Origin: Prorocentrum cordatum
Taxonomy: Eukaryota; Sar; Dinophyceae; Prorocentrales; Prorocentraceae
Direction: 5' to 3'
Assembly: GCA_963575745.1 (NCBI GenBank)
Contig: CAUYUJ010000706.1
Location: forward strand, 46,346 to 110,345
Length of the DNA: 64,000 nt
The notes under the pieces are model-generated. The model was not told where the DNA came from. It searched no databases and saw only the letters and a list, made by a program, of their open reading frames with translations. Made by a program: the position numbers and the translations under genes. Positions within the stretch are counted from its first letter, which is position 1. Every line of letters begins with the position of its first letter. Shown piece after piece: positions 28,506-44,011 of the stretch.

Positions 28506-28551
28506 GTGCCCAAAAAACGACAACTACGTCGGTACCGAGCTCGCCGTCCCC

Positions 28552-30528
28552 GTGCTGAAGCGTCACCCCAAGGCGCCCAAAGTGGTACACACGCACGTCC
28601 CCGTGACCGTGTACCAGCTGGGCACCAAGGAAGTCGCCTGCACGGAAAAAGTAGCCGTCGCCACCATCGATCCTGCCGACCACGTATGCTGGATTCGGGT
28701 GACCATACATGAAACCGAAGCCATCGCCGCAGTCCCCTCCATGCATCAGGCCTTCGAGGATCAGTTCTCGGGAGGTGCCCCCGTGAACGGTGGTCCACGC
28801 GCCAAGGGTCCTTTCCGAAGGGACTCCGCTCCACAGGACAAGGCGCGCCAAAACCAAAAGCACAGGGAGTCCAAGAAAGACGCTCGCCGCCAGGAGCTCG
28901 ATAGTCAGCTCCAGGACACCTTCAAGGCCCTCTTCCACGGCAACTTTAAAGCCGTCACCATCCTCGAACCCTGCAAAAGCCTAGGCAGGTATGGATCGGG
29001 CGTCGGAAAGAGGTCCCTGGCTGCCACCTTCGGCGTCAGTCTTCAAGCGGTTGACAAGGTCTTGGCGGGTTCAGGGCAACTCGGCGCCACCTACGACCTC
29101 AGCAACGTAGGTGCAGACGAGCCCACTGCAGACAAGTACCAGACCGTGTGGTTCCCTGAGGACCAGCCCATCACGATGGCAGATGCGTTCCAGAAGTCGG
29201 TGGACTTCAAGGCCCTAGGAGTCGTCAGGCACGGCAAGTCAGGCTTATTGGGGATCCGTGTTGCACGAGGGTCAGACGCCGCCAAGGCTGCTGCCGTCAG
29301 CATCCGTGGCTGTGAAGCCACCCTCGCCAAGACGCGATACCGCATCACTGGCATTGCGGCACGCCACGCCACGCTGACCCAGCTTGCTAAGACTCTCACG
29401 GGCCCGTCCGTCAAATGGGACTGTGAGGTCTACCACACCGCCTGGGACCCAGCCACTTCGGCTCAGTTTGCCTTAGTGCGCGCCCATCGTCCCCCACCCA
29501 CATATACGGTACAGGTCGCAGGGTGCCCCATCCCGTGGAGCATCACCGAGGCCCCGTTGGCTGAGGTGGTGCCGAAGAGGGACAACGTTACCATTGTCAC
29601 CCCTACCACTATCACAGAGCCTGTGACGCCGCCAGCCCGTGGTGGCGGCTTCAGCCCCGCCACGGGCACACTCCTAACCAAAGCGGCCCAGAGCCCTTAC
29701 CTCCACGACCTCATGACTGCCACGCCCAAAGGCAAGGGCGTCGCACCGCTCCCGATCCCCAAGGAGGAGCCTCTAGCCAAGCGCCACCGATCCTCCAGTG
29801 GGAAACGCGACGCCACGCCGCACGCAAGATCACACGGCGCCCCAGGCCGCAGCTCCTCTGCACCCCCGCACGGCACGGATGGAGCTGCCGAGCAGACGGC
29901 CGTCCAAGGACCAGGTGGTCATGACCCGCAACTTGGCACGGTGGCGGCTGAAGGCGGGGGCCACACGGAAGGGGACGCTGCCACAGCCGCCGAGGTACCA
30001 GGCGACGCTGACGACGTCGAGATCCTCTCATCAGGGGATGAATTCAGCGTGGCATCTCGCGAACTGAACACCCTCGGCGAACGCTTCGCAACGGCCCCTA
30101 AACTGTCAGATGCCGCCACGACCCGCATCCAACACATGGAACAACAGCACGAGCTGCTTGCCAACACGGTGGATAACATGCAGGTTCAGCTTGCGGGCGT
30201 TCTCTCATCCCAGGCCACACTCACGGAGCACGTTTCAGGTTTGGAACGAGGGCTTGCCACCGTCGTCACTCAGCAACAGACGGCAACTACCGAAGCTGCT
30301 GCACTGCGTGGCGACATCCAGGCCCTCCTCGGGCACCTCACGGGGGGCACCATCCACCTGCCACAGGTGGCCACCCTCGAAACAAAAAAGGAGGAAGCTG
30401 CATCAGTTGCCGATCCCGTGGCTGTCTGCGGGTGGATTGACCAGCCAGGCCAGGTCACCCCAGGGACGGGGCCCCCAGGGGCTGACAAAGGCAAAGACAA
30501 GGGTCGGGCCACTCAGGAACCCTATTGA
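28552..30528 (+). CDS. LINE ORF1, RNA-binding-type protein with C-terminal coiled coil
   Basis: 658 codons open from a GTG. The first in-frame ATG is codon 64 (28,741), and the frame stays open back to 28,462, so the true start is probably lost by 5' truncation. The N-terminal half (VPVTVYQLGTKEVACTEK, AVDKVLAGSGQLGATYDLS, ALGVVRHGKSGLLGIRVARG) looks globular. The middle is Pro/Ser/Arg-rich and disordered, with AKRHRSSSGKR as a possible nuclear signal. Residues about 515-600 (IQHMEQQHELLANTVDNMQ onward) form a coiled coil, as in many LINE ORF1 trimers. It ends KGKDKGRATQEPY. The function by position is nucleic-acid chaperone or RNP assembly, with no sequence-level family match by eye. Hairpin 1 of the GGCT family lies at 29,637-29,665. 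Confidence 0.7.
   Translation: MLKRHPKAPKVVHTHVPVTVYQLGTKEVACTEKVAVATIDPADHVCWIRVTIHETEAIAAVPSMHQAFEDQFSGGAPVNGGPRAKGPFRRDSAPQDKARQNQKHRESKKDARRQELDSQLQDTFKALFHGNFKAVTILEPCKSLGRYGSGVGKRSLAATFGVSLQAVDKVLAGSGQLGATYDLSNVGADEPTADKYQTVWFPEDQPITMADAFQKSVDFKALGVVRHGKSGLLGIRVARGSDAAKAAAVSIRGCEATLAKTRYRITGIAARHATLTQLAKTLTGPSVKWDCEVYHTAWDPATSAQFALVRAHRPPPTYTVQVAGCPIPWSITEAPLAEVVPKRDNVTIVTPTTITEPVTPPARGGGFSPATGTLLTKAAQSPYLHDLMTATPKGKGVAPLPIPKEEPLAKRHRSSSGKRDATPHARSHGAPGRSSSAPPHGTDGAAEQTAVQGPGGHDPQLGTVAAEGGGHTEGDAATAAEVPGDADDVEILSSGDEFSVASRELNTLGERFATAPKLSDAATTRIQHMEQQHELLANTVDNMQVQLAGVLSSQATLTEHVSGLERGLATVVTQQQTATTEAAALRGDIQALLGHLTGGTIHLPQVATLETKKEEAASVADPVAVCGWIDQPGQVTPGTGPPGADKGKDKGRATQEPY
29637..29665 (+). 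repeat. GGCT hairpin 1
   Basis: Outer stem CCGTGGTGG/CCGCCACGG (9 pairs, one T-G wobble), unpaired C, apical GGCT/AGCC, loop TC. Encodes GGFSPA in ORF1. Confidence 0.85.
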
Positions 30529-30699
30529 AGGTGCCTCAGAGAGCCTGCCTCAGCCCTCCGAGGAAGCGCCTTCAGAGGCATCTCTTCTCTCTTCGCGTCG
30601 TATCTCTTTCTTGTCATATCATGTCAGTTTTGGCAGCAGCACGAGCAAGCTATCTGGTGTAGGGACACCTGTCATCTTGCTGTGGGTGTGTTTGTTGCA

Positions 30700-31089
30700 A
30701 TGTACATGAGCATGCAGGGGTATCTGAGGATGCGTGCTGACATGCAGCTTTTGGCTCATCGCTCGCGCCGCCCGCCAGGCCTCGCCATCATGTGGCGCCT
30801 TGCCTGCAGCCTGGCCCTCCCCTCGCTCGCTGGAGCACACCCGTCTTCAGGCGGTGCGCCCCAGCATGGAGGTGAGGTTCTCCTGCGACACGCTGAACGT
30901 GGGACCCTTTTCTACCTCTACGATGACAGCATCTACAAGTACGATCACTGCACCATTTTGGACCCGATCGTGAACAGCACCGTTGCCGCGGGTCCGTGCG
31001 GCATAGGCCAGGCACACAGTGGCGGCTTCAGCCCCGCTGTTGTGCCCCGCTATTGCCCTACGGGTCTCACCACTCCCCCTGTGCGCTAG
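30700..31089 (+). CDS. Short ORF between LINE ORF1 and ORF2, signal-peptide-like
   Basis: From the ATG at 30,700 the frame runs 129 codons. MWRLACSLALPSLAGAHP looks like a signal peptide with a small-residue cleavage site. The remainder (TLFYLYDDSIYKYDHCTILD, IVNSTVAAGPCGIG) has two cysteines and one N-glycosylation-type NST. It ends at 31,089 and overlaps hairpin 2 and the upstream in-frame part of ORF2. It may be a real small secreted or membrane protein of the element, or simply open leader sequence. No homolog recognised. Confidence 0.3.
   Translation: MYMSMQGYLRMRADMQLLAHRSRRPPGLAIMWRLACSLALPSLAGAHPSSGGAPQHGGEVLLRHAERGTLFYLYDDSIYKYDHCTILDPIVNSTVAAGPCGIGQAHSGGFSPAVVPRYCPTGLTTPPVR
31013..31044 (+). 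repeat. GGCT hairpin 2
   Basis: CACACAGTGG pairs with CCGCTGT-T-GTG (10 pairs, one wobble, one bulged T), unpaired C, GGCT/AGCC, loop TC. Lies between ORF1 and the ORF2 ATG. Confidence 0.8.
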
Positions 31090-31126
31090 GGGCGAACCCG
31101 AGGAGGACCCTGCTTTCTGGCACCTG

Positions 31127-34100
31127 ATGATGATCCGCGCCCGGCTCATACCGTGTGCTGCGGCGTGGGCACCAGGTGAGGACAACCAGGACATGTTCTG
31201 GGCATGGCTCGAGGACTGCGTCCCGTACATCCTGGCGACGCTTCATCTGCCACAGTACGATCACCTCTTTCAGGAGGATTCTGAGGACACAACCGACGCC
31301 CTGCGTCAGCGCACCGCGGTCGACATGTGCGAGGACATCTGGCACAGAGCGGGCCCCGACAGGCAGCGCACCAACCGCAACCTCACTCGTATCCAGAGCA
31401 GCCGCGAGTACGCCACCCGCTACTTTGGCCTCCTTCTGGAATACCAGGGCGCTCGTGCCACGCTCGTCGGTCCTGAGGCTTTCACGGCACCTTTGCCGCC
31501 ATACCTCTCACGGGCCCATGCTCTGCTGCCAAGAGGCCTCCCTCCACCCGACCAAGACGCCATGGCGTACCTCGCCGACGTGATCCTGCACCAACCGCCA
31601 GACATGCTGCCGCTCGTCGAGGCGGAGCTCGCCGCGGCGCCGATGGACGGCACCGATCAGGCCGCAGATGATCCCGTATCATGGCTGCTACAGCACATCG
31701 CGGCCAGCGATATCGGCAACATATCCATGGACTCGTTCCACGCGTCGGACGATAGCCAGGACGGCATCGATACCCAGGATCGAGACGGCACGACACCACC
31801 AGGCGACTCGGCCCAGCGCGACCGCGACAGTGAACCCTACTTTGGGCACACCTCGTTGCACAGCAGTCCGCCCCACAACTCAGCTCAAGCCGACCCCGGC
31901 GCACAGCTCAACGACGCTGAAGGCGTCACTGCCGCTGACGCGACAAGCCATTCCACTGCGTCGCCAGCTCATGCCAGCCCGTGCAGTGGCGGCTTCAGCC
32001 CCGCTGCACCACTGGCTAGACCTGGACATCCCCAGACCGCAGGTGGCAGCACCACGCCCTTCACCTCTGTACACCGTGACAACGTGACTGACTCCAACCC
32101 CAGTGCCATTGGCCACTGGCAGGCCGACATCGACAACGACCCCATCGATGATGAGTACCCAGATGCCAGCGGTTCCCACGAGCCCCAGCACAGCGCAGCG
32201 GCATCACGACATTGTGGCTGCCTCATCTGCCTCTTTGTGGCCACGTACGCCATCGCGATAGCAATGCCGTACAAGGACCAGATCGATGGGTACTTGCCGA
32301 CACCGAGCCGAGACCCCAGCTACCGACAACGACGACGACGCAAAGCGACGGCACCAGGCCCATCGGTGTCCACCACATCCCGACGCAAAACGACATACAA
32401 TGTCACGTCCACATTGTGGGCCACTCTCAAATGGACCAGCGTCAAACTCAGAGATAGCGTCTCGGGCGGAGCCACTGCAGTCGGGGTCGGCCTCGGGGGT
32501 GTCCTGAAATGGGCCAGCGGCAAGCTAGGGGCTATTGCCACGGGTGGAGTCGTGTGTGGTCTTCTACTCGTCGGTGCCAAACTTCTTGCCCAGGGAGCTG
32601 TCGGACACGTAGGAGCCCGCATCTGTGCGCGGGCCCTGGACTCATCCACAGCCCAGTGGTGCCTCCGCTGTTGCCAACCGAGCAGGAGGCCGCGGGACGA
32701 GGCCACATACAAAATGCCGTGCACGCTCGCCGACGAACACGACGACCAGCATGTGCACGCACTCCGACATCCGCTGCTACAGGAACACTACGCCGCAGCA
32801 GTTGCCGCCGCAGTCGCCGATGTCACTACCGCCACCACCGCCGCCATCGTCGAAGTCACTGCCGCCGTATCGCGAGCCTCGTCTGTCACACCAAGATCGA
32901 CCAGCCCGTCTCCACGAGACGGCTCCAAGAGCGGCGCGGCATTCGGTAACCTACCGACTAACGAGGATGCCACAGCACACGGCAGCGACACCGAGGCAAG
33001 GGAAACGCGTGAGCGCACCCACGATAGCCCGTGGTCCATCTTCCGACATGCTGACGCTCGTGGTTCCTCCCCCGACGCGGACACCCAACCACCACGACGG
33101 CGAGCACGCTATGCATCACCCGACAGGCCCCAGGCGCCTTCAGGCCCTGGTATGCCTTACACAGCCCTCAAGCCACCGACACGCAACTTACGCAACACCA
33201 TCCAGCGCGACCCAGCGGTCCCCGTGCCGCCGAAGAGCATACTTAACGCCCTGTATCAAAACGGCTTTGCGCTAGGAAACAGTGGCGTGTCTACAGAGGA
33301 CATCAAAGACGCTCTGCGACTCCACGACCATCCTCGATTTACTCATGATCCAACACTCCAAGCGCTGGGGCCGTGGACGGACATCATGCAGAGGCCACCG
33401 AACCGCCTCACTTGGGTGCTGGAAGACTCGGGCGGGAACTCAGGCGAGACAATCTTCCCATACCTCACGTGGGACCTCCGCCAACCCACCACCGACGCGC
33501 CCACTGTCTTCTGGCATGGGACCCGCGGCGACCTTGCGGCCCGTCTTGCTGCCAGTGGAGGGCACCTCTTGCCAGGTCCCCGCCGTGAAGCGAAGGGCCG
33601 AACTGGCACCAACGTTGGCCGCACGTACGCGAGCGTGCACCCTTCGCTGGCCGCGTGGTACGCAATGCCGCCCCACCCGCCCTACAGTCTTGAAGACGAC
33701 ACCCTCGCGTGGGGACCCATCGCACTCTGGATGTGCGAGGCCACCCAACCACCGCGCGGGGAAAACAGGCACAACTTCGTGAAAGGGGAGGCCCACGGAG
33801 CGCGCCTCATTTACCCTCGGGTCCTGAGCCTCCTCATCCGCATGGACTGGTGTGCCCCCACAGAAGCTGCTTCCAGGTGCCGTGCCCTTCCACACGCCTA
33901 TGGCATGGGCGACTGCGCGCACGCCCTCCACATCGCTGGCTACGATCATCCAGATCTCCGTGAGGCGGCTGAAGCTCACGACCAGGAAGCTAGCACCAGG
34001 CGCAGACCAGCCATCGCGGCAGCGTGGCCACCGCCGCAGGCACTATACTCGCCAGAGGCAGCGCGAGTATGGGCCAAACAGCACTACGACACGGAAGCAG

Positions 34101-37100
34101 CCACCAGGGATGACCCTAACCAGCCCCGCCCACGCGTCTCGCTTCACATGCTCCAGCTGGACCCGAAACCACTCATCGACCTGGTGTACACTGGCTTGCA
34201 AGCTGTCCCCGTGCGGGGGCACCCTGACGCACGCGGGTCGCGCCCCAGCGGCTCCAGCCCTGGGGCCGCGTCGGGCCCACCACGCACGTACAAGTCAGGC
34301 ACAGCCCTGGCGCACAGTCCAGACCGCTCATCGACGTCATCTGGAGCCGACGAACGCCGTACGCCTTCCCTCATCAGCGCGGCCGCCGCCCTCGCCCGAG
34401 GCCGTGCCCGCCCACGACGATCTGCCTCTCGCTCGTCACGACAGAGTGACGGGAACTCCACCTCAGACAACAGTGGCATCGAGACGTGGGAGCACATTGT
34501 GACGGAAGAGGAGCCGACTGCCTACCACGTCCTCGCCTACCACGTCCGTGATGTGCGGACCCGTGTCAATGCCCCTGGCATCGAGGTCTGGCTTGACCCT
34601 GGTGATCACCACGATGGTGCCTACTTACCGTGGGGGACGACAGTCATGGGCCACCGCGTTATTGACCCTGCGGTGGCGGGGCGGGACGGCTGGGTCATCC
34701 TCCACCACGACCACGGCGACACCACTACTAAGCTCTGGGCACCGACCCAAGTCCACGTCAAAGCGGACGACACCTGGCGCACCGTCATGGTACCAGCGGA
34801 CATGGGGCCCCAGTGGATCAGGTGCCATGCCGAGGACGCTCGCCTCCCCGCCGAGGTTGTCCGCACTACAGGCCAATCCTGGTTTGCTGACGTCTGGCCC
34901 TTGTGGGATCGCCCGCGACCCCACCCAGACGACCCAGGCACAAATGAGCATGCGCTCCCGCCTTTACCAGGACGCTGGTCTTGCCTACAGTGTCGATTCC
35001 AATGCTGTCAGTACTGTGCGGCTCGCCGCAACACGCAGCTCGGCACCTCGGGCCAACCAACGTGCCCAGACTGCGGCCGCAGCGGACTGCGTACACTCAT
35101 GGACTGGTCCACGGACTACTCGTGCAACAGTTGGACGTGTGCATACAGCACCAACAACAGGGACTCCGACACATGCTGCCTGTCCAGCAGGTGCCCCCAT
35201 CCCCCCAGGCCACACAACCTGCTCGACGTCCGTGCCACAGGGATGCCGCCGCACATCCTTGCCCGCCAATTCGGCAACGCGCCAGCCCTCCACGACCTTA
35301 AGGAACCCCCCCGAGCGCCTTCAGGCCCCGGGGGGGAACCTCCACAACCAGGGCAAGCAGGCTACCAGGGTCAATGGTACTTCCCACCGCAGCCGCGGCG
35401 CGTCCCCAGGCAGGGACTGCCTGACGGCACAAGGCGGCCACCTGGATTCACAGGAACGGGGATGCCCGAAGAACCTTCCCCCGACCAACCGCTTTGGAGG
35501 GAAGGCTACGTGCTCTTCAGTCCCCACCAGGCCCTCAAGGAGGAATTCACCTTCAACAAGACGGTCCGCCGACCCTACTCCCTAGCCATTACCAACATGT
35601 ACAGGGATCGTGTCACGGTCAGGACCGTCTGCGAGTCGATCGCCGAGCGCATCCACACTACCCGCACCCGCTGGCGAGATGTGGTACTGTACTGGGACGC
35701 CGAGGGTGGTCCTGGGCCTCAAGCCCTCGACTACGACATGCGACTCTGCGACGCCATGGTGAGCCGTGCCACGACCGAAGCCGAGCTAAACCACGACCGC
35801 AGCAACCGTGGTAGTTTCTGCCTCTATGGACCAGCGCACCAGCGAGCCGTCAACATCACGGCGATCTCCGAGCCGCAGAACATCGACTACATGGAGCATG
35901 TGCGGCGATACTCACCCGTAGGGGGGACCTACCCTGACCACGCCTTCGAGCACGTCTATCGGGGCTGGCAGCGGCCCGACGTGCCCACCATCCTCCCCGA
36001 CACCCGTCCCCTCTCGAGAGCCGACTGGCAGCGTCACCAACAGCACCAGCAGCGCATCCAGCAGCGGGACCAACGTGACGCAGGACAGCAGGGCACGCCA
36101 CGCTACCGCTCCCCCGCGCGAGTCCCGACAGGCGGTAACACGGCCTACGACGGGGTTGCCGCCTACTACCGTGGCCCCATAGGTGCCAGGCCCGCGGCTG
36201 CTGGAGCAGCCGCCTCCAGCTACGGCCACGCCCCCCACGCCAGGGTACACCCAGCGGTCATCGGCTACCCGCGTGCACCCGTGCAGGCCCTAAGGGCCAC
36301 CTCGCCAGTGCCAGGGTCCACGCGCGCCTGGGGCCTTTACTCAGGCCGACATGATGGCACCTCCAGCAACCAGCCCGCAGTGATAACCCCTGCGGCTTCA
36401 GCCCAGGGGGCTGCAACAAACCGTGGCAGGGCTGGGCGCCCCGAAGGATGGCGTGATGCGAACGTGCGCGCTTGGCAACCGCGCCAGCACACGCCCCCGC
36501 CAAACGTGGCTGCAGCACTGCGCCCTGCCCAGGCAAAACCTGCCCCACCTGAGCGGGAGAGGCAGCCGCTTACCCCGCTCGTCCTCACGCACATCCAGGC
36601 GCATCACAGCGCCTCCCCGCGGCACAGCGAGGGAAGCGCCCACCACGTCAGCCCCCGCCCCGACGCTGTCGACCCCGACCAGGCCACAGCCACGGCGGAG
36701 GGCGGCACAAGCGCCTCTCGCCAGCCCAGCCCATCACCCTGCGCGGCGCCGATCCGATCCCCGAGCAGGGCGGATTCCGAGCGCGCTAATGCCCAGGCGA
36801 CCTCGCCACGCGACCGCCACACGGGCGGGCGCGTCCCGCGCAGCAGGACCTGCAGCCGCCACAGTTCACGCAAGGCCCCAGGGAGCTCCACGAGCTCGCC
36901 GCCTCGCGAGACTCAGGCTGATGGCCGAGCCCCCGAAGTGGTGCCACGCTTCGGAGCCAGCGTCATCGAACCTGGCCAGGTCGACCTCGAGCCGACGCCG
37001 TCCACGGACCACGAGCCGCCGCTGCCCACCCGCGTGATCGCCCCCATCGACGAGGCGCCAACCTTCGACCCGTTCAAGAACAAGTACCGTGTCAAGAACC

Positions 37101-40100
37101 TTGTGGCGGGTTTCGGCGGTGGCTCACCGCTCTCACCTCAGAGTCGGGGCGGAGCCCCCGCCACCTCAGCTGCTGCCGCGGCAGCGGCGGCCCCGCGGGG
37201 AATCAGCCCTGTCCGCAACGTGGGCCTCACGGCAGCGGGCATGGACGAGGCCCAGCGCCAGGCCTCCGACCGTGCTGCTGGAGCTGTTCCACCAGATGCT
37301 GCTCATCAAGATACTGACGGGGCGGGCGCGCCACCGCAGGAGGGACCAGCGGTGTCGCGTGCGCAGTATATGCGCGTGCGTTGTGCCGCCGCCGCGCCTA
37401 GCCGCCGCCGCTGGTTCGCTTTTGTTTTTGTGTTCGGCAGGACGGATCGAGGAGTCGCCTCCCTCTCCCTCTGCTGCCGTCTCACCTCTCCTCCCCTCGT
37501 CCCCTACGGTACTGGAGTGAGGAGGATTTTTCGTGACATTTTTACTGACGTTTATGAACCCCCCCTGGCGCAGTGCCGACCGTGTCCCGCCTATACTTCT
37601 GGCCTGACGGCGGCTTCAGCCCCGGTCAAGCTAATCCATAGGAACGCCATGAGCTCCTACTGTGGCCAAGCCTCCTACCTGGGCGAGGGTCAGGCTGACC
37701 TTCACCGTGCGGGGCGTGCAAACCCCAGTTCCACCGATGGAGACGGGCCAGGTCGCTCCATACACCTCGTCAGCCTTAACATCACCAGTCTCTCAGCGAA
37801 TTGGCCAACCATCACCGCCCTTGGTGTCGACCACAACGCCGCAGTCATAGCACTGCAGGAGACCCGACATGCCAAGCCGACTAGACAAGCCATCGCTACC
37901 AGCGCCGCCAATCCACTCCACGGAGGATACCACGCCAGTCTTGGACCTGACCTAGATCTGGCGCGAGCCCAGCGCAGAGCTGCCCACGGCGGCACAGACC
38001 ACACCGTTGTGGGCAACACTGGCGCCTCGGGAGGGGTCGCCATCCTCTCTAAGGATGCCATTGTCGACTCCACTGTCGACGACAATGCGCCCTGCATCGC
38101 CGCCCTCAAGGCCAAGAAAAGATGGCACGAGGTCTTTCTCCCGCTCTGCACTCAACACCGCCGCAGGCGGCGACGAAACAACCACGGGCCCGCGGGGATC
38201 TACATAGCGAGCCTCTACGGGATTGCTGGAGGAGACAGCACAGCTCTTTTTCGGCTCGCTGACTGCGCCGCCGCTAGGGTCGGCTCAGCCCCCTACTTCA
38301 TCTGCATGGACGCCAATACGAACATCGACGACAATCCACACCTTCTGCACATGTTGCAGCACGGATGGTTCAACGTTGCTGAGGGCACACCAGACCACAC
38401 CATGCACACATACGGCAATATCCCTGACTGGGACCGCGTCACCAAGTGCCCCCGCACTTCGCGCATCGATTATATCATTGCCAACCAAGCGGCGCGATCC
38501 CTTGTCACCGACTTCTGCTACCTTCGCGACTTGCCAGCGAAGTCTCATGTTGGCCTGCAGGTCACGCTTGACCTCAGTCGCCTCGACCATACGGCCCGAC
38601 GTCTTCTTGCCCCCACGCCCTACCCTCCCGACGATGGAGCTCATGAGGGTCACGAGCTGCAGGCACTAGGGACCCTCATCGCTGGGCGATATCAGGACCG
38701 CATGGAACAGGCCGACACACGCGACGACGTGGAGCGCATGTTCGCCCTGGCTAACGAGGCCAGTCATGAGTACCATCTCACCCGTCTGCGCGACCTGCCA
38801 CCTCCACCGCCCGACCACCCAAAAAAGAAGCCCCCCACCATGCACGGGCTCACGCCCACGTTCGAAGATCGACCAGTTGTCCCCCGCGCCTTCCCCACCT
38901 ACGGAGCTTCCACGATACACATGAACCGACTGCGCAAGCTCCATCGGCAACTCTGTGAGCTCCGTTTCATCGGACAGCACCATCATTTGGATTGCCGTGC
39001 TATCCCGCCGTACCTCGCGCAGCGCATCGACTGCACGTGGACCGCGGCCCGCCTCTTATGCCACAAGCTGCGCCCCACGGTTCTCCTAGACTTCCCCGAG
39101 GCCTGGACCCCCGACGAGCCAGTGCCTCACGGAGAGCACCTTGACGTTTTGATCCAACACCTCGACTTGGAGCTGGCGCGACGTGCGAACCGTGCCAAAG
39201 CTGAACGCATCAAGATATGGGCTGAGGGCGTCCGCGAGCCAAGCGGGCGAAAGGCGGCCATATACGCACGGGCTGCTGACAGCTCGCCCACGGCGTATCT
39301 CCGCACGCCTACCACACCTGACGATACGCAACTCCACTGCGACACCAACGCCTTTAAACCTGACGAAGCTTGCACGGACGACAGCGACGCTGACACCGAA
39401 GCTGGCGGCTTCAGCCCCAGCGACGGTAGTTCGCCCGACACGGACAGCGACGAAGACCACACTCGTGAACCACCACCTGCGCAAGTCCCCGACATCCTCC
39501 CTGCCAACGCCATTGTTGCTAACACCAAGGACATGCTGAAGCTCATGGTCGACACCTGGGAGCCCATCTTGGGCAGGTACCGTGCACGTGCGGGACATGA
39601 CGCCGAAGCCATGCCGACGTGGGCCGACTTCTACGACGAGTACCGACAGGAGCTGCCTACGCCATCACCAGCTACCCCTTTCCACCTCACCGACGACCAA
39701 CTCATCCACTTCATTCGCACCCGTTCACCGCGCCGCGCGGGGGGACTGGACGGCTGGACTACTAAGGAGGCTAAGGAGTTACCCGACGACATTCTTCGCC
39801 TCTTCGCCAGCGTCCTACGCGCTATGCAACGCACTGGCACCATCCCAGAACCCCTCCTCCACGTGCCAAACCCGTGCCTCCGAAAAGGCCGAGGCGAACT
39901 CCCAACGGACCAACGACTTCTCTCGGTGCTTTCCGTTTGGATGTATGCGTGGGAAGCGCCAGCTTACCGCAGCCTCACGGACTGGCGGAAAGGATGGACC
40001 CACGCCACGAGTTTTGGCGCTGTCCCCAAAGCTACCATTGGGGACGTCAGCACCTCTCTTGCCCTGCGCATCGAACACGCCAGGGCCTTACTCCTTCCCT

Positions 40101-41812
40101 TAGCTGGAGCTGCCCTGGACCGACAGAAGTGTTTCGACTACCTCATCACGGACATCTGCCTTAACCTTGCGCTTCACGCGGGGTGTCCCCAAGACATCGT
40201 TACTGTCCGCAGAAACTTCTACAGTCGCCACAAACGCTACATCCGCATGAACGGTGCGTACTCTAAGGAACTGGCCAGGACTAACGGTCACCTCCAGGGA
40301 AGCTCTTGGTCCCTGGACGACATTAAGCTGCTCATGTGTGTGTGGACCAAGAGACAGCATCGATACGTTCCGCGATCACTCAGCACTACCTTTGTTGACG
40401 ACAGCAACTCCACTACTCACACCGCGCCTGAGTTGCAGAAATCTCTTGATGAAACCGCCAAGTTTGATCGATTTTCTGGTCAACGCATTCATCCTGGCAA
40501 AGTGGCGGGGTGGGCGCTCACCGACGAGCTTCACGCCGCCGTTACCCAGCTCACTCTGGCGGAACGGCCCTTACGCGTGGTCGACTCCTTTAAGCTCGTC
40601 GGGAGTTACATCAACGCCGAGGCAGCGCCGGCTCCAGCCGCGCTTAACCTCACGGCCACCGCTGACGCCCGTGTTCGCAGGGCGACTAGTCGCCTGCCGC
40701 GCATTGGCAAGCTCCCATCACCGATGCTTATTAAGGCGCGGCACGCCCGTTCCCTTGCTGCCAGCGTCTGTACCACGGGCACCGACATTCAAGCCCCATC
40801 AGGCCCCGTCAAAACTGCCTACAACCATGCCCTTAAGGCGGCTATCCGCCCCAAGGGAAACAGGTGGGTCGAGTTTTGGACTCTCATGGCCGTGTGCGTC
40901 CCAGGACACGCCCTGGAGATTGACGCCATTATGCAGCGTGAAGTCTTCCTGTGTCTGCGGCGACAGGTTAACCGCGACGCTACTCTCTGCGGTCTCGTCA
41001 GGGATCTCCAACACCATGTCCAGACCCTTTTCGGGGGAGGACCTGTAGGACGACTTGTCCAGACGCTTCAGCAGCTCCGTTGGACCTGGCCCACATTTGG
41101 CATCATGTACGACGACTGGGGCTGTCAGATCAGTTGGCTGAACCTACCCCAAAACGCCTTCCTTCACATGCTGCGAGCCTCACAACGCAGAGCCTTTCTG
41201 AGAAAAATCAAGCCACGGCGTCATGACCTTGGACACCTGGCCTCTGTCAGACAGGGCCTCGACCTCTTCGCCAGCACGTGGCTCGCCCGACGAAAGGAGC
41301 AGCCAAATGCAACGCATGGCAGCTGGCGCTCCTCCTTAACTACCTGTCGGGCGGGGACCACACCCAACAGCGACGATCCCGATCAAACACGTCCGCTGAC
41401 CCCAGCCCCATCTGCCGATACTGCGACGAGGAAGAGGAAACTCAGGAGCACACTGTTCGCGACTGCAAGTGCTGGGCCCGAGAAAGAGTCCCTCTCACCA
41501 CCCTCATCAGTGACGAGCAGTGGGCCCGTCTTCCGCCGCACACAAGACACTGCGGGCTCTTCGATGAAGACCCAGCCCTCCTCGACCTGCAGGCCGACCT
41601 CGCGAGGGACCCGCTACCACAGCCCATACCGCGGCCCCCACCTGAGGGAGATCCTGCGGCTTCAGCCCAGGACTCCTACACCACCTACCTTGACCATGAC
41701 ACTGGTTGGACATGGGTCTACGCTGCCACGGACGGTGCATGCACCAACCAAGCCATCCCATTGCTTGCACGAGCGGGCTACGGCGTCTACTACGGCATCG
41801 ACCACCGCATGA
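31127..41812 (+). CDS. LINE ORF2: accessory region, endonuclease, reverse transcriptase
   Basis: First ATG at 31,127 (the frame is open from 31,019), about 3,560 residues uninterrupted. Residues about 1-2190 are an unusual N-terminal region: two hydrophobic segments (CLICLFVATYAIAIAMPY; GGVVCGLLLVGAKLLAQGAV), a WHGTRGDLAARL...GRTYASVHPSLAAWYA block at about 795-850 resembling ADP-ribosyltransferase folds, and a cysteine-rich block (WSCLQCRFQCCQYC...CPDCG...CCLSSRCP) at about 1280-1365. The endonuclease follows at about 2215-2480 with N2218 (LNITSL), E2245 (LQETRH), D2395 (CMDANTN), R-IDY (SRIDYII) and H2474 (SHVGLQ). Reverse transcriptase at about 2860-3200 has GGLDGW, D2998 (LDRQKCFDYL), QGSSWS in place of QGDP, and catalytic FVDD at 3089-3092. 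After about codon 3380 the frame departs from the family and homology continues in the +1-shifted ORF at 41,278. Confidence 0.85.
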   Translation: MMIRARLIPCAAAWAPGEDNQDMFWAWLEDCVPYILATLHLPQYDHLFQEDSEDTTDALRQRTAVDMCEDIWHRAGPDRQRTNRNLTRIQSSREYATRYFGLLLEYQGARATLVGPEAFTAPLPPYLSRAHALLPRGLPPPDQDAMAYLADVILHQPPDMLPLVEAELAAAPMDGTDQAADDPVSWLLQHIAASDIGNISMDSFHASDDSQDGIDTQDRDGTTPPGDSAQRDRDSEPYFGHTSLHSSPPHNSAQADPGAQLNDAEGVTAADATSHSTASPAHASPCSGGFSPAAPLARPGHPQTAGGSTTPFTSVHRDNVTDSNPSAIGHWQADIDNDPIDDEYPDASGSHEPQHSAAASRHCGCLICLFVATYAIAIAMPYKDQIDGYLPTPSRDPSYRQRRRRKATAPGPSVSTTSRRKTTYNVTSTLWATLKWTSVKLRDSVSGGATAVGVGLGGVLKWASGKLGAIATGGVVCGLLLVGAKLLAQGAVGHVGARICARALDSSTAQWCLRCCQPSRRPRDEATYKMPCTLADEHDDQHVHALRHPLLQEHYAAAVAAAVADVTTATTAAIVEVTAAVSRASSVTPRSTSPSPRDGSKSGAAFGNLPTNEDATAHGSDTEARETRERTHDSPWSIFRHADARGSSPDADTQPPRRRARYASPDRPQAPSGPGMPYTALKPPTRNLRNTIQRDPAVPVPPKSILNALYQNGFALGNSGVSTEDIKDALRLHDHPRFTHDPTLQALGPWTDIMQRPPNRLTWVLEDSGGNSGETIFPYLTWDLRQPTTDAPTVFWHGTRGDLAARLAASGGHLLPGPRREAKGRTGTNVGRTYASVHPSLAAWYAMPPHPPYSLEDDTLAWGPIALWMCEATQPPRGENRHNFVKGEAHGARLIYPRVLSLLIRMDWCAPTEAASRCRALPHAYGMGDCAHALHIAGYDHPDLREAAEAHDQEASTRRRPAIAAAWPPPQALYSPEAARVWAKQHYDTEAATRDDPNQPRPRVSLHMLQLDPKPLIDLVYTGLQAVPVRGHPDARGSRPSGSSPGAASGPPRTYKSGTALAHSPDRSSTSSGADERRTPSLISAAAALARGRARPRRSASRSSRQSDGNSTSDNSGIETWEHIVTEEEPTAYHVLAYHVRDVRTRVNAPGIEVWLDPGDHHDGAYLPWGTTVMGHRVIDPAVAGRDGWVILHHDHGDTTTKLWAPTQVHVKADDTWRTVMVPADMGPQWIRCHAEDARLPAEVVRTTGQSWFADVWPLWDRPRPHPDDPGTNEHALPPLPGRWSCLQCRFQCCQYCAARRNTQLGTSGQPTCPDCGRSGLRTLMDWSTDYSCNSWTCAYSTNNRDSDTCCLSSRCPHPPRPHNLLDVRATGMPPHILARQFGNAPALHDLKEPPRAPSGPGGEPPQPGQAGYQGQWYFPPQPRRVPRQGLPDGTRRPPGFTGTGMPEEPSPDQPLWREGYVLFSPHQALKEEFTFNKTVRRPYSLAITNMYRDRVTVRTVCESIAERIHTTRTRWRDVVLYWDAEGGPGPQALDYDMRLCDAMVSRATTEAELNHDRSNRGSFCLYGPAHQRAVNITAISEPQNIDYMEHVRRYSPVGGTYPDHAFEHVYRGWQRPDVPTILPDTRPLSRADWQRHQQHQQRIQQRDQRDAGQQGTPRYRSPARVPTGGNTAYDGVAAYYRGPIGARPAAAGAAASSYGHAPHARVHPAVIGYPRAPVQALRATSPVPGSTRAWGLYSGRHDGTSSNQPAVITPAASAQGAATNRGRAGRPEGWRDANVRAWQPRQHTPPPNVAAALRPAQAKPAPPERERQPLTPLVLTHIQAHHSASPRHSEGSAHHVSPRPDAVDPDQATATAEGGTSASRQPSPSPCAAPIRSPSRADSERANAQATSPRDRHTGGRVPRSRTCSRHSSRKAPGSSTSSPPRETQADGRAPEVVPRFGASVIEPGQVDLEPTPSTDHEPPLPTRVIAPIDEAPTFDPFKNKYRVKNLVAGFGGGSPLSPQSRGGAPATSAAAAAAAAPRGISPVRNVGLTAAGMDEAQRQASDRAAGAVPPDAAHQDTDGAGAPPQEGPAVSRAQYMRVRCAAAAPSRRRWFAFVFVFGRTDRGVASLSLCCRLTSPPLVPYGTGVRRIFRDIFTDVYEPPLAQCRPCPAYTSGLTAASAPVKLIHRNAMSSYCGQASYLGEGQADLHRAGRANPSSTDGDGPGRSIHLVSLNITSLSANWPTITALGVDHNAAVIALQETRHAKPTRQAIATSAANPLHGGYHASLGPDLDLARAQRRAAHGGTDHTVVGNTGASGGVAILSKDAIVDSTVDDNAPCIAALKAKKRWHEVFLPLCTQHRRRRRRNNHGPAGIYIASLYGIAGGDSTALFRLADCAAARVGSAPYFICMDANTNIDDNPHLLHMLQHGWFNVAEGTPDHTMHTYGNIPDWDRVTKCPRTSRIDYIIANQAARSLVTDFCYLRDLPAKSHVGLQVTLDLSRLDHTARRLLAPTPYPPDDGAHEGHELQALGTLIAGRYQDRMEQADTRDDVERMFALANEASHEYHLTRLRDLPPPPPDHPKKKPPTMHGLTPTFEDRPVVPRAFPTYGASTIHMNRLRKLHRQLCELRFIGQHHHLDCRAIPPYLAQRIDCTWTAARLLCHKLRPTVLLDFPEAWTPDEPVPHGEHLDVLIQHLDLELARRANRAKAERIKIWAEGVREPSGRKAAIYARAADSSPTAYLRTPTTPDDTQLHCDTNAFKPDEACTDDSDADTEAGGFSPSDGSSPDTDSDEDHTREPPPAQVPDILPANAIVANTKDMLKLMVDTWEPILGRYRARAGHDAEAMPTWADFYDEYRQELPTPSPATPFHLTDDQLIHFIRTRSPRRAGGLDGWTTKEAKELPDDILRLFASVLRAMQRTGTIPEPLLHVPNPCLRKGRGELPTDQRLLSVLSVWMYAWEAPAYRSLTDWRKGWTHATSFGAVPKATIGDVSTSLALRIEHARALLLPLAGAALDRQKCFDYLITDICLNLALHAGCPQDIVTVRRNFYSRHKRYIRMNGAYSKELARTNGHLQGSSWSLDDIKLLMCVWTKRQHRYVPRSLSTTFVDDSNSTTHTAPELQKSLDETAKFDRFSGQRIHPGKVAGWALTDELHAAVTQLTLAERPLRVVDSFKLVGSYINAEAAPAPAALNLTATADARVRRATSRLPRIGKLPSPMLIKARHARSLAASVCTTGTDIQAPSGPVKTAYNHALKAAIRPKGNRWVEFWTLMAVCVPGHALEIDAIMQREVFLCLRRQVNRDATLCGLVRDLQHHVQTLFGGGPVGRLVQTLQQLRWTWPTFGIMYDDWGCQISWLNLPQNAFLHMLRASQRRAFLRKIKPRRHDLGHLASVRQGLDLFASTWLARRKEQPNATHGSWRSSLTTCRAGTTPNSDDPDQTRPLTPAPSADTATRKRKLRSTLFATASAGPEKESLSPPSSVTSSGPVFRRTQDTAGSSMKTQPSSTCRPTSRGTRYHSPYRGPHLREILRLQPRTPTPPTLTMTLVGHGSTLPRTVHAPTKPSHCLHERATASTTASTTA
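31983..32007 (+). repeat. GGCT hairpin 3
   Basis: Outer GCAGTGG/CCGCTGC (7 pairs, one wobble), unpaired C, GGCT/AGCC, loop TC. Encodes GGFSPA in ORF2. Confidence 0.85.
33130..33150 (+). repeat. GGCT-type hairpin 4 (GCCT/AGGC variant)
   Basis: Outer CCAGG/CCTGG, unpaired C, apical GCCT/AGGC, loop TC. Encodes APSGPG. Sits just before the WHGT block. Confidence 0.8.
34243..34265 (+). repeat. GGCT hairpin 5 (CC loop)
   Basis: Outer CCCCAG/CTGGGG, unpaired C, GGCT/AGCC, loop CC. Encodes SGSSPG. Confidence 0.85.
35306..35336 (+). repeat. GGCT-type hairpin 6 (GCCT/AGGC variant)
   Basis: Outer CCCCCCCGAG/CCCGGGGGGG (one A-C mismatch), unpaired C, GCCT/AGGC, loop TC. Encodes APSGPG. Follows the cysteine-rich block. 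Confidence 0.8.
36387..36409 (+). repeat. GGCT hairpin 7
   Basis: Outer CCCCTG/CAGGGG, unpaired C, GGCT/AGCC, loop TC. Encodes AASAQG. Confidence 0.85.
37605..37628 (+). repeat. GGCT hairpin 8
   Basis: Outer TGACGG pairs with CC-G-GTCA (one extra G), unpaired C, GGCT/AGCC, loop TC. Encodes AASAPV just before the endonuclease. Confidence 0.75.
39401..39421 (+). repeat. GGCT hairpin 9
   Basis: Outer GCTGG/CCAGC, unpaired C, GGCT/AGCC, loop TC. Encodes GGFSPS between endonuclease and reverse transcriptase. Confidence 0.85.
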
Positions 41813-43479
41813 ACTACAGTGCACGCGTTCACGGCATTACGCAGAACGCACAGCTTGCGGAGACCCTCGCCATTGTCCACCTCACGGCATGTGCTGAACG
41901 GCCCGTACACGTTTTCGTGGACAACCAGGCGGTGGTTGATGGTTTCCAAAGGATCATCGACGGACCCTCACCACCGCAGGGCACGCACGTGGAGCTCTGG
42001 GAAAAGATCCACCGATGCGTCATGGCCAAGCCCAACATGTTCCGCGTCGAGAAAATCGCAAGCCACCTGGGCGACATGGGCATCGACCTCGGGCTCATCG
42101 GGCCCATCGCGGAGGAGTTAAATCGTCAGGCTGACGCCCTCGCCACAACGGCGGCACGTACTCATAACCTTCCAGACGACATTGTCGAAGCTGCCAAATC
42201 ACGACATCGCCAAGCGACCGTGCTTCATGGAGTCGCTGTCGCCATCTACGAGCGTAGACACCGTACACTCCCCCTCCCACACCGCAGGGCTGGGTTCACA
42301 ACTGCGGAACTCAACAAAATGGAACCAAATCCCCTGCTGTCTGACCAGGCACCACCCGCGGCTGGACCAGACATCCCACAGAACCCGGACGAGCTCTGGG
42401 CCGAGGCCCAACGGGCGATATTCGACGAACAGGAGGACGACCCGTTCGGTTTTGGTGGGGGCCTGGACTTCCTGGGCGACGGGCCAGCCAGCGCCAACCC
42501 TGCCCCGTCGGGTACCCGCACGGCGCCCCCGACTCCGCCATTGAGAGCGGCAGCGCACCCACATGACAACGCCGCTCATTTTCAAGACGCTGACGAACAG
42601 GAGGATGACCTGTTCAGCTTCGTTGGGGGATCGGACGCTTTGGACGACGGACCAGCCAGCGAAAACCCCGCCCCGTCGGGAAACCTCTCGATCCCTACTG
42701 CGACTCCGTCCCCGAGAGCGATATCGCCCACATACGATGATATCGGCCACCGCCAAGACGCCGACCAAGACCTGGGTGACCCCCGCGGACTGAGTGGCAT
42801 GGAGGACGCACCGCCGATACCACACGCTGCCGACCATGCCGCCCTACCGAGACGCCAACCTTCTACACGACCGACCTCAGAGCCCTTGCACGGCATCATG
42901 ACTGGTCCCACCGCGCAAACCACTCCGCCCCCCCACCGCCGGCAGCCCGCGGGGGCGGCTTCAGCCCCCCCGCAGGGTACTAACCCAGACAGGCCCTCGT
43001 GCCCCATCCACGCTTCCATCGTTGCTGAGCGAGAGGAAGCGGCTCTCCCGACCTCTCGGGGCGTGGCCCTAGCGGCTCCAGCCCTGGGGTCGCGTGTGCC
43101 CCTCCAGTCACCCTTCAAGGGTGACGGACGACAGCGTACAGGGTGCCGCACTACGCTAGTCCACCATGTGGACAGGCGTACCGAGGACCTCGCCTCTGTC
43201 TCGAGGCTCTCGGCTGCTGGCACTGAGCAGCCACCCCTCACCGACCGCGAAACCGAGCTGTCACAGGCAATGGCTGCCCTCCAGCAGAGGTGCTTAGCTC
43301 TCGCCGCGGACCTCGCCGCCGCCCAAGCTCGTCAAGGCCCTCTACTCCAGCGCCTCCACAGCGCTGGGCGAGCCTTTGCCGAGCTGCTCACGGCCTCGCC
43401 CGATGGTGCCGCGCCGTCACTCAACATCCAAGCTATGTTGTCATCGTTCCGCGGCGCTCCACCTGGTGCCCCGCGCTAA
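41278..43479 (+). CDS. LINE zinc finger and RNase H, shifted frame (continuation of ORF2)
   Basis: Coherent homology starts at about CNAWQLALLLNYLSGG (41,310). A zinc finger CRYC-x8-H-x4-C lies at residues 46-63, the same CX2CX8HX4C spacing as in the decayed LINE at 46.5 kb. RNase H: D152 (ATDGACT), E195 (LAETLAIV), D215 (VDNQAVVD) and RQADALA near 286, so the catalytic acidic residues are present. Residues about 370-733 form an acidic/proline-rich tail, with a repeated EDDPFGFGGGLDF/EDDLFSFVGGSDAL unit and a final helical heptad region (MAALQQRCLALAADLAAAQA). It stops at 43,479. ORF2 and this frame overlap from 41,278 to 41,812, so a single frameshift near 41,280-41,310 would join them. Whether it is programmed or a mutation cannot be told here. 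Confidence 0.8.
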   Translation: MARPTKGAAKCNAWQLALLLNYLSGGDHTQQRRSRSNTSADPSPICRYCDEEEETQEHTVRDCKCWARERVPLTTLISDEQWARLPPHTRHCGLFDEDPALLDLQADLARDPLPQPIPRPPPEGDPAASAQDSYTTYLDHDTGWTWVYAATDGACTNQAIPLLARAGYGVYYGIDHRMNYSARVHGITQNAQLAETLAIVHLTACAERPVHVFVDNQAVVDGFQRIIDGPSPPQGTHVELWEKIHRCVMAKPNMFRVEKIASHLGDMGIDLGLIGPIAEELNRQADALATTAARTHNLPDDIVEAAKSRHRQATVLHGVAVAIYERRHRTLPLPHRRAGFTTAELNKMEPNPLLSDQAPPAAGPDIPQNPDELWAEAQRAIFDEQEDDPFGFGGGLDFLGDGPASANPAPSGTRTAPPTPPLRAAAHPHDNAAHFQDADEQEDDLFSFVGGSDALDDGPASENPAPSGNLSIPTATPSPRAISPTYDDIGHRQDADQDLGDPRGLSGMEDAPPIPHAADHAALPRRQPSTRPTSEPLHGIMTGPTAQTTPPPHRRQPAGAASAPPQGTNPDRPSCPIHASIVAEREEAALPTSRGVALAAPALGSRVPLQSPFKGDGRQRTGCRTTLVHHVDRRTEDLASVSRLSAAGTEQPPLTDRETELSQAMAALQQRCLALAADLAAAQARQGPLLQRLHSAGRAFAELLTASPDGAAPSLNIQAMLSSFRGAPPGAPR
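41652..41672 (+). repeat. GGCT hairpin 10
   Basis: Outer TCCTG/CAGGA, unpaired C, GGCT/AGCC, loop TC. Encodes AASAQD between zinc finger and RNase H. Confidence 0.85.
42946..42977 (+). repeat. GGCT hairpin 11
   Basis: Outer CCCGCGGGGG pairs with CCCCCGC-A-GGG (10 pairs, one bulged A), unpaired C, GGCT/AGCC, loop TC. Encodes AASAPP. Confidence 0.85.
43067..43089 (+). repeat. GGCT hairpin 12 (CC loop)
   Basis: Outer CCCTAG/CTGGGG (one T-G wobble), unpaired C, GGCT/AGCC, loop CC. Encodes AAPALG. Confidence 0.85.
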
Positions 43480-43847
43480 TCTCCTCCTTTCTGCCTGCCC
43501 GTGTGTACGCGTGGCCCCGCGTCCACGGTGTCAGGGCGTGGGGGCGGGGGGTGCCCCGTCCCTGCGCGCCGCTTAGCGGCCAAGCGCCCAACTGGCGGTC
43601 TGCCAAGCCGCCTAGCCACGTGTCAGCACGTCGCCTTTCTTGTTGGGGCCTATTTCCTCACGCGGTCTGACAGGTGAGATCATCATCGTCTGTCCGCCGT
43701 CTGTAGCGTCTGTCGCACTGCGCCGGGGGATGGGTTTTTTTGTTGCCCGCCCTCGTATCTAAAGGCTGCACCGCCGCAAATAGTGCATGCGAGTTGTCGC
43801 ACCGCAGTGCGCCTCGCGGACGGACCCTGGTCCGCCTACTTGTCCGA

Positions 43848-43891
<44 letters not shown>

Positions 43892-43911
43892 GCTCGCTCC
43901 CTCTCCCCCTC
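43480..43911 (+). other. LINE 3' untranslated region, border unknown
   Basis: After the stop the sequence is GC-rich and non-coding, with no poly(A), then a CT array from about 43,850 that runs into the gap. The end of the element lies somewhere in this stretch or in the gap. Confidence 0.5.
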
Positions 43912-44011
43912 NNNNNNNNNNNNNNNNNNNNNNNNNNNNNNNNNNNNNNNNNNNNNNNNNNNNNNNNNNNNNNNNNNNNNNNNNNNNNNNNNNNNNNNNN
44001 NNNNNNNNNNN
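43912..44011. other. Assembly gap (100 N)
   Basis: Exactly 100 unknown bases, a conventional placeholder, so the true size is unknown. Flanked by a CT array and a CTC array. Confidence 0.99.

Follow-up and report, generated by a model that had tools for sequence, protein, structure and literature searches.

The DNA analyzed here (the window) is a stretch of 64,000 nucleotides (nt) from the dinoflagellate Prorocentrum cordatum (assembly GCA_963575745.1, contig CAUYUJ010000706.1, positions 46,346 to 110,345 of the forward strand). Judged from its sequence, the element studied in it is a long interspersed nuclear element (LINE), a non-long-terminal-repeat (non-LTR) retrotransposon, with endonuclease, reverse transcriptase (RT), and RNase H domains. 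Pfam searches matched PF03372 (E value, 5e-7) and RNase_H (E value, 2.6e-6) above the cut-off and RVT_1 (E value, 0.03) below it, and an FVDD motif is present in the translation. The LINE RNA is about 16 kb long. The genome holds many copies (9,904 first-look candidates, 98 of them scored), some of which are 5' truncated. Because several other copies have open frames of 4,316 or 4,385 amino acids (aa) across the RT, compared with 3,601 in the window copy, the window copy looks frameshifted between the RT and RNase H. Distributed along this element is a family of small hairpins with a bulged C, which are the subject of this report.

The window LINE contains 13 bulged-C hairpins with a UUCA or UCCA loop, all in the sense orientation (Table 1). 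Their cores have the form C-GGC (or GCC)-UUCA/UCCA-GCC (or GGC) and lie on the plus strand from 29,646 to 43,073; the same cores were found neither on the minus strand nor elsewhere in the 64-kb window. A preliminary description of the window had listed 12 hairpins in one shared orientation, with none outside the LINE, and all of this was recovered from the sequence (12 of 12 cores). It overlooked the hairpin at 40,629, which could be a chance occurrence, and a weak one at 30,842, in which 10 of 12 outer positions are paired and which was kept in 12 of the 12 copies listed. Complete LINE copies carry one further hairpin in the 5' part of open reading frame 1 (ORF1), ~1.3 kb 5' of hairpin 1, with the sequence CGTCCGCA-C-GUCUUCAGGC-UGCGGACG; it is lost from the truncated window copy. 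One complete copy (L246+L247) has 15 hairpin sites with the weak ones counted. The gaps between them measure 1,028 to 1,795 nt, with a coefficient of variation of 0.17 (pairs less than 200 nt apart were merged), and none of 200,000 uniform draws was as evenly spaced. The overall density (~15 hairpins) is about one per 1.2 kb. Hairpins occur in all three coding frames, in the spacer between the ORFs, and, in the related element X described below, ~100 nt past a stop codon.

Table 1. Features of the LINE in the window (positions are those of the 64,000-nt stretch; L numbers denote individual copies)
Feature	Positions	Strand	Core	Remarks
ORF1	28508..30528	+		5' truncated at 28508 in window copy; full copies continue 5'
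Hairpin 1	29635..29667	+	29646-29656, CGGCTTCAGCC	ORF1 frame; outer stem GCCCGTGGTGG/CCGCCACGGGC; pair 8 C-G to G-C in L159, L163
Weak hairpin, ORF1-ORF2 spacer	30830..30864	+	30842-30852, C GTC TTCA GGC	two A.C mismatches in outer stem
ORF2 open frame (stop to stop)	31007..41812	+		endonuclease PF03372, weak RVT_1
Hairpin 2	31016..31040	+	31023-31033, CGGCTTCAGCC	hairpin stays where other subfamilies' flanks are rearranged
Hairpin 3	31981..32009	+	31990-32000, CGGCTTCAGCC	
Degenerate hairpin	32020..32044	+	32027-32037	CATCCCCAGAC; intact in subfamilies B and C as C GTC TTCA GAC
Hairpin 4	33130..33150	+	33135, CGCCTTCAGGC	apical stem GCC/GGC
Hairpin 5	34242..34266	+	34249, CGGCTCCAGCC	UCCA loop
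Hairpin 6	35306..35336	+	35316, CGCCTTCAGGC	apical stem GCC/GGC; one outer-stem A.C mismatch
Hairpin 7	36387..36409	+	36393, CGGCTTCAGCC	
Hairpin 8	37605..37628	+	37611, CGGCTTCAGCC	weakest outer stem, needs bulge
Hairpin 9	39401..39421	+	39406, CGGCTTCAGCC	
Hairpin near RT	40624..40644	+	40629, CGGCTCCAGCC	stem AGCGC/GCGCT, innermost pair C-G; fits spacing; model E 0.025
3' frame	41227..43479	+		RNase H PF00075
Hairpin 10	41652..41672	+	41657, CGGCTTCAGCC	ahead of RNase H
Hairpin 11	42949..42973	+	42956, CGGCTTCAGCC	
Hairpin 12	43061..43095	+	43073, CGGCTCCAGCC	12 outer pairs including G.U; UCCA loop
3' tail	43484..43899	+		common to LINE and otherwise nonhomologous X at 88%

When each site was folded as RNA with 100-nt flanks, the apical pair probability was near 1 at 10 of the 13 sites and 0.85, 0.71, and 0.41 at the others. 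The folded geometry consists of a variable outer stem of ~5 to 12 base pairs (bp), a 5' extrahelical C, a 3-bp apical stem, and a UUCA or UCCA loop. The bulged C and the outer stems had been described in this form, but the 4-bp apex with a 2-nt loop proposed along with them had to be revised to 3 bp and a tetraloop. Most stems are complementary, as had been stated; those at 35,316 and 37,611 are imperfect.

Synonymous-codon permutation, summed over the three frames, gave an expectation of 0.085 strict hairpins (≥4 Watson-Crick pairs in the outer stem, a bulged C, and YC), compared with 8 counted; these 8 are 7 distinct hairpins, since two frames overlap at 41,657. The 13-mer GCGGCTTCAGCCC was present 10 times in the window with at most one mismatch, while shuffled sequences contained it 0.30 times on average and twice at most. 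Because the permutation falls so far short of the number counted, we reject chance or codon bias as the origin of the hairpins; the hairpin family is genuine and exceeds chance by a wide margin. A shuffled-codon simulation had been named beforehand as a comparison that might reproduce the hairpins, and it does not.

We built a covariance model of 27 columns from 16 hairpins, with those at 35,316, 37,611, 40,629, and 30,842 outside the training set. On the window, the model returned 13 matches at an E value of ≤0.025, all in the LINE and all on the plus strand, and the next matches had E values of at least 0.34. Three of the 13 were absent from the training set, at 35,308 (E value, 5e-5), 37,604 (E value, 0.003), and 40,621 (E value, 0.025); the weak spacer hairpin was matched at 30,834 to 30,860 (E value, 0.34). 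Across the loci L144 to L163, the model found 132 matches, all on the sense strand of the element. These fall into 45 distinct rows in which stem pairs were formed in 88.4% of cells, and the covariation score was 0.628, compared with 0.147 for shuffles and no more than 0.186 upon sliding. Core positions and covariation thus bear out the view that the hairpins are one family with a fixed geometry, whose outer stems differ yet are complementary. Compensatory change between homologous copies, whose absence would have counted against the preliminary description, turned out to be modest: one clean double change, one A-U/G.U/G-C series, and one paralogous pair in the element X' described below. At 29,646, pair 8 was C-G in 7 of 12 copies, G-C in 2 (L159 and L163), C.T in 2, and C.C in 1. 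At 31,023, pair 7 was A-U in 5 of 10 copies, G.U in 2, A.C in 2, and G.G in 1, and separately G-C in L163; this copy, of subfamily B, retains the hairpin with the flanks on both sides rearranged. The paralogous repeats of X' have the stems GAGUGC/GCACUC and GGGUGC/GCACCC.

Constraint was measured in 119 site-copies, taken from copies 82 to 98% identical to the window LINE, with partial alignments excluded. (The per-site listing of copies also excluded hairpin insertions and copies of <78% identity and dropped L163 at 31,023.) Changes affected 11 of 1,309 core positions (0.8%) and 19 of 1,428 inner-arm positions (1.3%), compared with 80 of 1,428 positions just outside the arms (5.6%) and 476 of 9,520 flank positions (5.0%), a change rate in the hairpins ~4 to 6 times below that of the flanks. 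Synonymous changes numbered 7 in 911 hairpin codons versus 399 in 5,914 flank codons (~9 times rarer), and nonsynonymous changes numbered 12 and 417, respectively. Ranked against nearby 23-nt windows, the hairpin windows had a mean local percentile of 0.113; the lowest value among 1,000 random sets was 0.285. By these sequence comparisons, the hairpins are kept by selection at the nucleotide level. The preliminary description had argued from their presence in all three frames that protein selection is insufficient to explain them, and both the permutation and the synonymous constraint agree.

The hairpins recur in a second element. X is a ~7-kb element lying between two LINE copies on contig C2. 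Its first 18 nt are identical to those of the LINE, with weak likeness to about base 40, and its last ~420 nt match at 88%. Between these ends, blastn matched the X body to the LINE at hairpins only, and tblastx gave short pieces grouped with the tail match. X has four hairpins, all sense and none antisense, of which hairpin 4 follows the stop of a 986-aa frame. When the hairpin-4 site was used as the query, 40 of 253 candidates were scored and 41 matches were obtained. In 20 copies, hairpin 4 was exact in 17 (with a UUCA or UCCA loop), had one core change in L180 and L182, and was degraded in L169. Ten copies were compared at the other sites. A tandem pair of hairpins, 114 bp apart in a repeat, was present in 9 of them, with one member UUCG looped in two; the tenth, on C16357, has LINE sequence at both places. 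Hairpin 1 was present at collinear sites in all 6 readable copies, the hairpin-1 region being off the contig in one further copy and N in L207 and L217. A relative, X' (L245, contig C188), consists of 160 nt of the LINE 5' untranslated region (UTR) at 89%, then an X-like body, and then the LINE tail; it has six hairpins with the weak ones counted, one of them with a bulged A. This makeup suggests end exchange between the elements. Pfam matched no RT in the 986-aa frame, the only frame of X scanned, and we take X and X' to be nonautonomous. No capsid family was recognized in the scanned frames, and ORF1 is unannotated; Gag_p24 matched the X frame below threshold (E value, 0.22).

Beyond the window, we counted the core motifs in the genome assembly (4.128 Gb in 21,875 contigs; the P. 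cordatum genome paper gives 4.15 Gb and 59.7% GC [PMC10666404]). The 11-mer CGGCTTCAGCC occurs 15,054 times, versus 7,418 for a control, and the 13-mer GCGGCTTCAGCCC, which adds the flanking G and C, occurs 12,016 times, versus 390. The variant GCGTCTTCAGACC occurs 454 times, versus 190; among 20 of its places that were fetched, 15 were LINE subfamilies B or C with a 7-pair stem, and the 5 non-LINE places had stems of 6, 1, 1, 1, and 3 pairs. A bulged-C hairpin of the same form lies in the RT region of a different LINE (L132:493-519; 30.7 bits; E value, 1.7e-5), and L184 has a model match of 22.1 bits (E value, 0.003). We regard both as probably due to chance because chance cores number in the thousands genome-wide.

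Synonymous constraint, noncoding sites, varied but paired stems, a fixed loop and bulge, a single strand, and sharing between the LINE and X together argue for an RNA signal with a common reader, and a repeated RNA signal was among the explanations offered at the outset. Our preferred reading, to which we give a probability of roughly 0.55, is that the hairpins serve as a cis-acting RNA signal, dispersed and repeated, through which an element-encoded protein would assemble the ribonucleoprotein (RNP) or select the template. We infer three parts of it: action as RNA, binding by the protein of the element, and the step itself. The hairpins would form in the sense RNA of the retrotransposon family, and their bulge and loop would be recognized by an RNA-binding protein, most likely one of the element's own (from ORF1 or the large ORF2). 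With ~15 sites, this protein could coat and compact the ~16-kb RNA and designate it the reverse transcription template (cis preference). For X, retaining these hairpins would allow the LINE machinery to accept its RNA. The array probably originated when 40- to 60-nt segments were copied within the element, and the stems of the copies later drifted with compensating changes.

Several known structures invite comparison. The iron-responsive element (IRE) has a 5' unpaired C below a short upper stem of 5 bp and a CAGUGN loop; the LINE hairpins share the unpaired C below a short upper stem but differ in the upper stem and loop. When the element was scanned against Rfam, only two matches appeared, each scoring far under its family cut-off and neither an IRE. 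Mitochondrial double-hairpin elements, repetitive extragenic palindromic (REP) sequences, and attC sites are short repeated palindromes, some with extrahelical bases, that are intergenic or mobile by themselves, whereas the LINE hairpins stand at fixed sites of one retroelement family and in the sense orientation only. In the MS2 operator, two bp separate the bulge from the loop; the LINE hairpins have three bp there, and their usual bulge is a C. We know of no capsid of a LINE. Packaging signals of single-stranded RNA viruses of the MS2 type are likewise many stem-loops along one RNA, with a common loop motif and a 5' bulge in varying surroundings, and the MS2 motif is (x)xYA in the loop with an A in the 5' bulge (PMC6281560). 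The UUCA and UCCA loops fit xxYA as given there, and the bulge is an A in one hairpin of X'. By sequence and covariation, multiple stem-loops with a common motif run through one RNA here too. We favor RNP assembly or template selection because the repeated, spaced layout resembles these packaging signals and the loops resemble the MS2 motif. A more specific proposal, drawn by analogy and held tentatively at somewhat less than even odds, is that the body-wide array of ~15 MS2-operator-like hairpins is a repeated packaging code, which X, with its unrelated body, kept or acquired for its mobilization.

According to one abstract, LINE stem-loops are located in the 3' UTR, in the 5' UTR, and at the end of ORF2, and terminal stem-loops or poly(A) have been the proposed signals of template choice (PMC5135761). 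The 3' UTR stem-loops read by RT in stringent LINEs, and the L1/Alu case, are similar in that a bulged stem-loop is shared with a nonautonomous partner; they differ from the present array of ~15 hairpins of one family, which is body wide and mostly coding and has another loop and bulge distance. In the titles and abstract openings of the papers listed in searches on dinoflagellate LINEs, hairpins or stem-loops, and LINE RNA structure, no such hairpins are described; "hairpin" and "stem-loop" are absent as whole words from a 2024 review of dinoflagellate genomes, and "hairpin" is absent from the P. cordatum genome paper (PMC10666404). The question that the array addresses is how LINE proteins choose their own RNA. 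If the preferred reading is true, body-wide hairpins that are alike in the LINE and X would open template choice to direct tests and connect LINE RNPs with virus-like assembly on packaging signals. The packaging code of the more specific proposal would be, as far as those titles and abstract openings show, the first multisite RNA packaging code in a non-LTR retrotransposon.

Several observations weigh against the preferred reading. The sites at 34,249 (pair probability, 0.41) and 37,611 fold uncleanly in context; those at 33,135, where one copy is deleted, and again 37,611 show no constraint in the local percentile test; and hairpin cores are broken in single copies, e.g., at 31,990, 35,316, 37,611, and 40,629. 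Pairs with two-sided changes numbered 9, a value reached by 95 of 500 shuffles. The covariation is mostly between paralogous sites, some of them mutual copies, in an alignment fitted to the model, and compensatory changes at orthologous sites are few. The copies are related and young, which makes the counts nonindependent, and gene conversion could lower the rates. The even spacing, with weak sites counted, could reflect domain linkers. Weak antisense model matches exist in L244 (E value, 0.095) and in the window (E value, 0.79). Finally, neither the protein-relative search nor an RT scan of viral contigs found a hairpin-bearing relative outside the P. cordatum genome.

Foremost among the alternatives is a host factor that reads the hairpins for nuclear export of the long RNA, stability, translation, or evasion of silencing. 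The constraint, covariation, and synonymous rarity fit this equally well. The stemmed hairpin was nonetheless found almost only in this element family: outside LINE copies, ≤3 outer pairs are present at 21 of the 22 isolated 11-mer loci. We consider a host reader unlikely, though it is the best of the rivals. Less probable still is a role at the DNA or cDNA level, in which hairpins in single-stranded complementary DNA (cDNA) would guide template switching, second-strand priming, or recombination between copies. The LINE and X have common ends and stand in tandem, and 13 of the 41 X matches listed stop at query base 149, ~11 nt past the 3' arm (7 pairs) of X hairpin 4. Four of the 13 include the hairpin in the region compared, and their sequence differs beyond that base. 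However, this is the single breakpoint seen, the variant returns to X-like sequence farther downstream, which makes the difference local and not the mark of a new body, and one strand throughout with a fixed loop and bulge suggests a signal that is read.

The preliminary description had also offered a hairpin-forming mini-mobile element that is tolerated in linkers of the LINE. In its favor are the numerous paralogous copies, whose flanks differ, and the local segmental copies: 40- to 60-nt segments appear to have been copied within the element (the sites at 34,249 and 43,073; the X pair 114 bp apart). Against this, outer arms are not common to most sites, and hairpin sites are constant among the LINE subfamilies compared, except for single copies with broken or deleted hairpins. 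No hairpin present or absent with clean edges, and no clean insertion at a site empty in relatives, was found in these subfamilies; the variable site at 32,027 differs between them by point changes and not by insertion. Nor did stemmed hairpins appear dispersed among the 22 isolated 11-mers or the first 100 13-mer places listed. Of the latter, 78 lie in fetched loci aligned as LINE or X and 20 (on C137, C147, C159, C164, and C169, in loci not fetched) are clustered with LINE-like spacing, which leaves 2 elsewhere, one on C48 in the RT of another LINE (7-pair stem) and one on C97 (2 pairs). We reject an independent mobile hairpin on this location (98 of the first 100 listed) and on site constancy, and we regard insertion into linkers as very improbable. 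We give equally little credence to passive homogenization, in which functionless recent repeats are kept alike by gene conversion; hairpins 5 and 12 do have ~60 bp in common at 85%, but conservation ends at the stem ends, while stems vary between sites yet stay paired. That the hairpins result from protein-level constraint, or from the codon bias of GC-rich linkers, has in its favor that many sites encode GGFSP or AASAP; the permutation expectation, the three frames, the noncoding sites, and the synonymous constraint make it extremely improbable.

Other observations concern the LINE itself. A search for protein relatives found two, at 25 to 27% identity; the RT scan of viral contigs gave no match, and viral contigs with a 15-mer (115 stretches, with one match in each of the 80 listed) were read as chance. 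A candidate new element, L225/Y, turned out to be a LINE subfamily. About 2,200 aa lie ahead of the endonuclease in ORF2 (window positions 31007 to 37657), and Pfam recognized no family in the pieces 33179 to 34099 and 34499 to 35299, nor there when the whole frame was searched at an E value of 0.001. Structure prediction of ORF1 from the single sequence gave a predicted local distance difference test (pLDDT) score of 38, too low for the model to be of use.

Among complete copies with an exact match, TAGTCTCGGCTCGAGAGT is the start and follows a CT-rich run at 7 of 7 places (one of them X), and this 18-mer start occurs 908 times in the genome, versus 0 for a control. LINE and X copies (L145, L149, L161, and L146; contigs C2, C21, and C102) stand head to tail, with TAGTCTCGGCTCGAGAGT directly after the CT-rich end of the predecessor. 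These sequences suggest insertion into (CT)n, the element's own tail included. In the window, an assembly gap of 100 N (43912 to 44011) starts 13 nt past the 3' end of the LINE and is perhaps its unassembled (CT)n tail. Between LINE subfamilies, a 5' UTR stem shows compensatory-looking changes (GGGGTCC-CAGCA-GGACCC in L241 versus ACCGCGC-CAGCA-GCGCGGT in L246:1-160), which perhaps mark a further RNA structure close to the 5' end.

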